64,000 nucleotides of DNA from Blautia parvula (lineage in GTDB: Bacteria; Bacillota; Clostridia; Lachnospirales; Lachnospiraceae). Within the stretch, counting starts at the first letter, position 1; every line of letters starts with the position of its first letter. Positions 18,814 to 63,811 of the stretch are shown here, in pieces. A model generated the notes under the pieces. It was not told the DNA's origin. It worked only from the letters and a program-made list of their open reading frames with translations, and searched no databases. The stretch covers positions 5,926,501 through 5,990,500 of the forward strand of contig NZ_CP084061.1 of the NCBI RefSeq assembly GCF_020215665.1, written 5' to 3'. The position numbers were made by a program, and so were the translations under genes.

Positions 18814-18897
18814 TGCAGGAGATGGGACTTGAACCCACACGATATTGCTACCACAGGCACCTGAAGCCTGCGCGTCTGCCAATTCCGCCACTCCTGC
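18814..18897 (-). tRNA. tRNA-Leu (anticodon CAG), copy 1
   Basis: On the minus strand the 84-base sequence folds into a class II tRNA: acceptor arm GCAGGAG/CTCCTGC with discriminator A, D-arm, anticodon stem AGGC/GCCT around loop TTCAGGT (anticodon CAG at 18861-18863), a long variable arm and T-arm with TTCAAGT. CCA is not encoded (TCC follows). It is identical to copy 2, 231 bases away. Confidence 0.95.
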
Positions 18898-19044: not shown

Positions 19045-19128
19045 TGCAGGAGATGGGACTTGAACCCACACGATATTGCTACCACAGGCACCTGAAGCCT
19101 GCGCGTCTGCCAATTCCGCCACTCCTGC
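19045..19128 (-). tRNA. tRNA-Leu (anticodon CAG), copy 2
   Basis: Same 84-base sequence and fold as copy 1, with the anticodon at 19092-19094. The upstream DNA is also related to that of copy 1, so the duplicated unit included the promoter. Confidence 0.95.
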
Positions 19129-63426: not shown

Positions 63427-63464
63427 CCAACAACAATTCAAACTAACCAACAGTTTTATTAAAA

Positions 63465-63498
63465 ATGAGCTGTCCCCTATTTCCGGGAGACAGCTCAT
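63465..63498. terminator. Hairpin after the sigma/anti-sigma operon
   Basis: ATGAGCTGTC at 63465-63474 pairs with GACAGCTCAT at 63489-63498, flanked by A-rich sequence upstream. There is no clean T-tract on the plus strand; on the minus strand it is followed by TTTTTAATAAAA, so it may also terminate leftward transcription. Confidence 0.6.
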
Positions 63499-63596
63499 CT
63501 TAAATTATATAACCTTCCGCCTGCAATATCATTAACAATGCTCTGTGGGTGTAAATTTCAACAGAATAATAAGAAAAATAACCGCTGCCACTGTCA

Positions 63597-63797
63597 GGGG
63601 AAAGAAAGGGCCGGAGGCCGGGATGCCTCTTTCGTCAGGCGAGGTTAAGCGGAGTGAGTCGAAGATCCACCTGCCCCAGACACTTGGTGAGGAAGTCATT
63701 GCTGACGAACCTAGTGACTGGGAGCAGGTTAGCTGAGACGCACGGAGCCTCGAGCAGGACGAAAGAGGCATCCCGGCCTCCGGCCCTTTCTTTCCCC
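63597..63797. ncRNA. Candidate large structured RNA: 201-nt element closed by a 40-bp perfect stem
   Basis: Arms at 63597-63636 and 63758-63797 are perfect reverse complements. The 121 bases between them fold into a further nested stack on the plus strand: CGAGG/CCTCG (63640-63644, 63748-63752), CCTGC+CCCAG with CTGGG-A-GCAGG (63670-63679, 63718-63728), CACTTGGT/ACCTAGTG with one mismatch (63681-63688, 63709-63716), and GTCA/TGAC around loop TTGC (63695-63706). Purine-rich internal loops (GAGTGAGTCGAAGA, GAGGAA) between helices are typical of structured RNAs. No open frame fits. Strand is unproven; the loop composition suggests plus. Size and complexity recall raiA-motif or HEARO-type RNAs, but I cannot assign a family. 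Confidence 0.65.
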
Positions 63798-63811
63798 GTC
63801 CGCTAAGCCAC

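Follow-up and report, generated by a model that had tools for sequence, protein, structure and literature searches.

A long hairpin between a DUF4179 gene and aroE

The window, by which we mean the whole stretch of 64,000 nucleotides that was analysed, contains a perfect inverted repeat of 40 bp, the arms of which (63597-63636 and 63758-63797) are 100% complementary and enclose 121 nt. The gene upstream of this hairpin carries a DUF4179 domain, found in proteins that we take to be anti-sigma-like, and adjoins an ECF-type sigma factor; the minus-strand fragment downstream, which encodes a shikimate dehydrogenase C-terminal domain, is aroE and is convergent to the upstream gene. Mechanical open reading frames of 45-79 aa cross the hairpin. 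An earlier note, made from the sequence alone, had described a mismatch-free 40-bp repeat around 121 bases, nested helices in the inner bases and a position between an anti-sigma gene and the 3' end of aroE, and these three descriptions hold, further nested helices being present within the inner 121 nt in the predicted folds of both strands. The predicted structure is one long hairpin on either strand, with a minimum free energy of -144.7 kcal/mol. Shuffled sequences average -74.4 (sd 4.9), none of 200 being as good, which gives a z of -14.4; the opposite strand has a z of -12.7.

The element comprises the following parts, all given for the + strand, its core having been aligned across 17 copies and across 47 diverse cores. 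The left terminal tag CA, which reads TCA in the window copy, lies directly outside the stem at 63595-63596. It is followed by the left arm (63597-63636) of the outer stem; this arm is variable, differing from the arms of other copies, each of which pairs with its own partner. Next comes the conserved, covarying core (63637-63757). Within the core, a GATCC strand (63664-63668), invariant in the 17-row alignment and less so in the 47-row alignment, faces a TTAGC strand (63729-63733) that is likewise invariant in the 17-row alignment, and a GARGA strand (63689-63693) faces a GAYGAA strand (63704-63709), both conserved in the two alignments. The right arm (63758-63797), identified by the inverted-repeat search, is followed by the right terminal tag GTCC (63798-63801), the first three letters of which were required by the boundary rule described below.

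Shortly after the DUF4179 gene, and separate from the element, lies a terminator-like inverted repeat (63458-63505) with 20-nt arms, 85% complementary, and an 8-nt loop. Elsewhere in the window, two 84-nt tRNA genes with equal scores are present on the minus strand (18814-18897 and 19045-19128), their starts 231 bp apart, possibly reflecting a duplicated tRNA. A search of both strands of the whole window against Rfam 15 gave two matches at gathering score, both to tRNA, and at five loci with other copies of the element all 20 matches at E<=5 fell below the gathering score. The best match on the hairpin itself was MIR1437 (85 bits, cutoff 168). Membership of an Rfam family is thus rejected for the window and these five loci, and the suggestion that the hairpin belongs to raiA, to a HEARO-like class or to another known class is not borne out in Rfam 15.

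A dispersed Lachnospiraceae element with constant ends

The window hairpin belongs to a dispersed element, as one of its copies, and is not a single RNA gene. BLAST located the inner region at 17 places in its own genome, the window copy included, while the outer arms had no BLAST match elsewhere in that genome with the exception of one 55-base stretch. A covariance model built from these 17 cores was searched in 20 congeners, including the own genome (G000), and identified 27 places in G000, 33 in G008 and 14 in G009; the other 17 congeners gave no match. The earlier note had proposed that many copies would indicate a mobile element and one copy a housekeeping RNA, and the 27 places in the own genome put the element on the multicopy side. 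The 75 model matches include one that is antisense to a G000 copy, leaving 74 places. In 71 of these the arm run is no shorter than 12 bp; eight of the 71 fail a boundary rule under which the stem must be preceded by C or T and then A, and followed by GTC, so that exact boundaries are available for 63 elements (24 in G000, 28 in G008 and 11 in G009).

The usual layout is CA, arm, a core of about 110 nt, complementary arm and GTCC. Among the 63 rule-passing elements, which are 174-221 nt long, the left tag is CA in 62 (30 CCA, 19 ACA, 12 TCA and 1 GCA) and TA in one, and the right tag is GTCC in 62 and GTCT in one. When folded, their outer stems comprise 2572 Watson-Crick and 28 G-U pairs, with 73 left-arm bases unpaired. 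Reading the arms along the diagonal without folding gives 2476 Watson-Crick, 23 G-T, 4 A-C and 19 other juxtapositions, a tally in which copies related by descent are each counted. The excess of G-T over A-C (23 vs 4) points to additional selection for pairing of the + strand or to a repair bias.

For searches of the family, the order and the phylum, a broader covariance model was built from the 47-core alignment, which combines 28 of the 71 congener elements with 19 of 28 pattern matches from named metagenome-assembled genomes (MAGs), and 8-10 candidates were scored per genome. This model was positive in 29 of 397 sampled Lachnospiraceae genomes, own genome included. Two genomes matched in the order draw (295 genomes, family members among them), both of them Lachnospiraceae, and the own genome was the sole match in the phylum draw (299 genomes, again with family members among them); the order and phylum draws thus gave no positive beyond Lachnospiraceae, under filters that lose weak matches. 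The core pattern occurs in 27 stretches of named genomes, in Lachnospiraceae or Clostridia MAGs, and arm run and layout are kept in 22 of the 28 pattern matches from named MAGs, five of the six misses lying at contig ends. In each of eight copies in INTA.CYC.029 the arms measure exactly 33 bp, and their sequences all differ. Five contigs of this assembly (SAAH01; L122, L123, L129, L134 and L136) stop inside the element core, as expected of an assembly-breaking repeat. In 25 further copies from distant Lachnospiraceae, three lack an arm run and many arms are short or interrupted. Both copies at L181 (G340:C82) have the apical core swapped for a longer stem followed by a T run, a terminator-like arrangement. 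No viral contig contained an exact match to the core pattern and one core had no BLAST match in plasmids and phages, and a phage or plasmid origin was rejected on these grounds. The hairpin family was not recognised in the openly licensed literature, judged from titles and the beginnings of abstracts; the family is real and apparently undescribed in that literature.

Elements lying less than 1.5 kb apart are arranged head-to-head with GTCC outward in 12 of 12 pairs, some of which are orthologous, leaving eight distinct loci. This tally was scripted on the congener matches and on family genomes with at least two matches per contig, the rest being read by eye, and a thirteenth pair, in L138, is likewise head-to-head. 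The orientation of the element relative to adjoining genes is mixed: on crude ORF calls, the right neighbour gene is on the + strand in 33 and on the - strand in 38 of the 71 elements, and an assignment as a UTR element was rejected on this basis. Nineteen of the 71 elements overlap no ORF of at least 80 aa, 46 overlap mechanical ORFs of 80-199 aa and six touch an ORF of at least 200 aa; each of the latter ORFs runs into one element end and none contains a whole element. An upstream promoter belonging to the element was also rejected, since strong sites upstream of the 63 elements (4/63) are at the expectation from shuffles (3.6). Promoter-like sites that lie in the right flank and point outward number 8/63, compared with 1.0 expected from shuffles, and these excess sites are perhaps promoters of downstream genes.

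Several features of the flanks were observed alongside the element. In G000, G008 and G009 both flanks contain little G on the element + strand, irrespective of the chromosome strand; the mean skew over the nearest 100 bp is about -0.4 to -0.5 and fades over several hundred bases. The effect is weak in 21 elements of other MAGs (-0.08 and -0.14). Drifted tandem duplications are found beside hairpins in the flanks of L038, L051, L095 and L040, and the right flank of L095 repeats part of the right arm with the GTC tag. Seven copies in G175 have flanks in common, part of which is a second, long and imperfect hairpin module, present beside the element at about 7670-8030 of L214 and at other G175 loci and apparently doubled in L215 and L217. 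A larger mobile unit was considered for these copies, and a by-eye reading of the ORFs at two of their loci revealed no obvious transposase.

Covariation in the core and paired change in the arms

The earlier note had asked for compensatory changes in the inner helices, and these are abundant: across the 47 diverse cores, 31 of the 32 consensus core pairs have double changes. The covariation score of the core is 0.739, compared with 0.244 for shuffled alignments, and sliding the partners yields no more than 0.168; 90.1% of core cells pair as against 25-48% when the partners are slid. Four of five covariation measures lie above all 500 shuffles; the fifth, the count of further core pair types, does not, with 132 of the 500 shuffles as high. 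The core thus contains covarying base pairs beyond shuffled controls, as expected of a structured RNA; such covariation would also arise from folded DNA or from template switching. The core helices vary and the facing strands GATCC/TTAGC and GARGA/GAYGAA are kept, a third subfamily departing somewhat from the latter motif. The central pair of GARGA/GAYGAA (columns 71/86) covaries, being AU in 29, GC in 12, CG in 3 and unpaired in 3 of the 47 cores, and the predicted geometry is one in which two tandem G.A pairs could form around this covarying pair. In the core helix at columns 48-53, 278 of 282 cells are Watson-Crick and one is G-T, unusually few G-U pairs for an RNA, which counts against an RNA reading.

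To compare copies at common positions, orthologous elements were identified by their flanks. Twenty-two comparisons, in which some loci were in common, were reduced to 17, one per element; 16 have matching flanks on both sides, and in one, that of G000:2295172 and G008:1878465, the right flank alone matches. Flank identity of the orthologous pairs is 82-95%. Of the outer pairs in these 17 comparisons, 575 are unchanged, 93 have changed to a compensated Watson-Crick pair, 12 have changed to G-U, 4 are broken, 4 fall in other classes and 12 are gapped. Arm substitutions amount to 15.5% per site, whereas core substitutions amount to 5.6%, and the changed core pairs comprise 19 compensated, 14 changed to G-U and 13 broken. 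Because the compared copies sit at common positions, the slow core suggests selection acting in place, and conversion between copies could also produce it.

Transversions make up 39 of the 93 compensated arm pairs, and a single G-U step therefore cannot be their route. The arm rate and the transversions are not easily obtained, judging from these comparisons, by selection through G-U intermediates, and copying from arm to arm would give both; double changes in place that include transversions, together with an arm rate near that of the flanks, are what template switching predicts. Multi-base clusters of the kind left by template switching were not seen in the arms (18 adjacent changed pairs compared with 17.4 expected); single-base corrections would leave no clusters. 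At the window locus itself, G009 has lost the core and retains a 16-bp outer stem that is perfectly paired and differs from the window copy at three positions, all compensated and all transitions; the matching region of G008 is 70% similar and contains no element. Compensated changes also occur in G175, in copies whose arms are about 65 bp long and whose flanks are about 87-95% alike, and two of the four readable arms hold one uncorrected change each.

Explanations for the element and comparison with known systems

The element as directly observed is multicopy, with constant ends, a conserved, covarying core, in-place change on both sides of the arms and close neighbours placed head-to-head. 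On balance we favour, as the probable explanation, a dispersed structured element that probably acts as RNA, with a core under selection and arms whose perfect pairing is maintained by template switching as the DNA replicates. The core would then be the working part, a nucleic-acid fold bound by some factor, with RNA of the + sense more likely than DNA, and the long stem would serve to present and insulate it. The note had singled out the long outer stem; the stem is real, but it is the variable part of the element, and the core is the conserved part. Replication is envisaged to stall on the hairpin and to switch template within it, copying arm from arm; this intra-hairpin template switching would be the main reason why the arms stay perfect, and would let the arm sequence drift almost freely while its pairing is restored. 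The excess of G-T on the + strand noted above is expected if RNA pairing of that strand is also selected. Weighing against the favoured explanation are the absence of promoter enrichment upstream, the scarcity of G-U in the core helix at columns 48-53, the unclustered arm changes, the core pairs that went to G-U or broke, the mixed orientation relative to genes, and the copies in which arms are missing, short or interrupted. A further suggestion, which we regard as speculative and improbable, is that the element represents a novel type of dispersed RNA system, in which the locus-specific, diversifying, perfect double-stranded arm of each copy would be an addressable guide or substrate, the common core providing the handle for one trans-acting machine.

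Folded single-stranded DNA offers a possible, if less likely, alternative to an RNA with template-switched arms. The element would be a mobile element like REP/RAYT or IS200/IS605, a trans-acting transposase using the folded hairpin and its CA/GTCC feet as its substrate. The constant feet, the head-to-head arrangement of all 12 close pairs, the dispersed copies with patchy presence (29/397 genomes) and the near absence of G-T from the core helix at columns 48-53 are all compatible with such mobility. However, the Y1 transposase family PF01797 has no match in G008 and G009 and a single partial match with a stop in G000, and it exceeds its cutoff in 7 of the 17 congeners that lack the element (8 of 20 overall). 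Reverse transcriptases match in 17 of 20 congeners regardless of whether the element is present, and were accordingly rejected as not discriminating. Moreover, 17 elements are common to congeners by position and many copies are therefore long resident. No clean empty sites were recovered in a search of G008 and G009 with joined flanks, which covered six of the eight loci prepared: the left flank mostly failed to align, three of the sites read contained truncated remnants of the hairpin or else a right-hand end, and others had no recognisable element. The proposal in the note of a mobile-element end is supported in part, in that the multiple copies and constant terminal tags give the element a mobile character; no mobilising protein was found.

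Selection alone, in which a transcript needs long perfect double-stranded RNA (for example as an RNase III substrate) and ordinary compensatory mutation maintains it with no arm copying, would explain why G-T exceeds A-C in the arms and why the core changes more slowly than the arms. We nevertheless consider it rather unlikely, given that the arms change at a rate within the range of the flanks though both sides of each pair must change, that so many double changes are transversions, that G-U accounts for only 28 of 2600 outer pairs and that the coreless stem in G009 stayed paired. The position of the window copy between convergent genes would suit an ordinary terminator between genes or a stabiliser of mRNA 3' ends, but convergent neighbours are a minority (10/71 elements, on crude ORF calls), termination needs neither a conserved core nor constant tags and a terminator-like repeat is already present at 63458-63505, making this reading very improbable. 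That each insertion builds new arms from its target site, the arms being copies of host sequence, would account for arms that differ among copies but is barely credible and was rejected: it is contradicted by orthologous loci, where the arms are homologous and have changed in concert, and by related copies in G175, where they are nearly identical.

Compensatory changes are commonly read as strong evidence for selection on RNA structure, and the element carries the warning that covariation in a long stem may arise in the absence of RNA function. With a slow core and fast, paired arms in dozens of copies and their orthologues, it provides a natural test bed in bacteria for distinguishing selection from template-switch copying and, should the core prove to function as RNA, represents a Lachnospiraceae family absent from Rfam 15. 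The large bacterial structured RNAs, among which we count raiA, HEARO, GOLLD and ROOL, are similarly long, non-coding and covarying; unlike them, the element has no Rfam match at gathering score, is multicopy and forms one long hairpin. MITEs and mosaic repeats of the BOX/CIR type are small, non-coding, dispersed and able to fold, as is the element, but its inverted repeat is copy-specific, no terminal inverted repeat is common to the copies, no target-site duplication was seen and no clean empty site was present among the loci examined.

The closest resemblance in layout and dimer habit is to REPs. We take dRS3 to be 5'-CGTC..CCA-3', and the tag polarity here, 5'-CCA..GTCC-3', seems reversed relative to it. 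GTAG/CGTC REPs are defined by a stem of 5-13 bp and a loop of 2-20 nt, and CGTC REPs, with stems of 8-9 bp and loops of 4-5 nt, have CCA tails, predominantly head-to-head dimers and no known dedicated transposase, and are listed for five phyla that do not include Firmicutes (PMC3733652). Like CGTC REPs as described there (PMC3733652), the element is a palindrome in many copies, carries short unpaired tags where the stem ends and contains the letters CCA and (C)GTC, and head-to-head dimers with tags outward, predominant among GTAG/CGTC REPs in that account, are likewise found here. In contrast to the CGTC REPs of that account, stems here are mostly about 25-65 bp and enclose a covarying core of about 110 nt. 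The RAYT/Y1 transposase associated with GTAG REPs has no match in the carriers G008 and G009. Because its stem and loop sizes, within elements of 174-221 nt, fall outside the REP definition, the element is not classed as a REP, although it behaves as a dispersed palindrome would.

For the maintenance of the arms, the nearest precedents are other hairpins. Template switching has been published as a maintainer of hairpins in rRNA (PMC8794818), and is suggested for the long perfect inverted repeats of Nematomorpha mitochondrial palindromes (PMC6649704). The arms described here have in common with both near-perfect pairing, paired changes between relatives and a replication-based copying model; the Nematomorpha palindromes are coding and the other case concerns rRNA stems, whereas the present hairpins form a dispersed family with a conserved loop domain.
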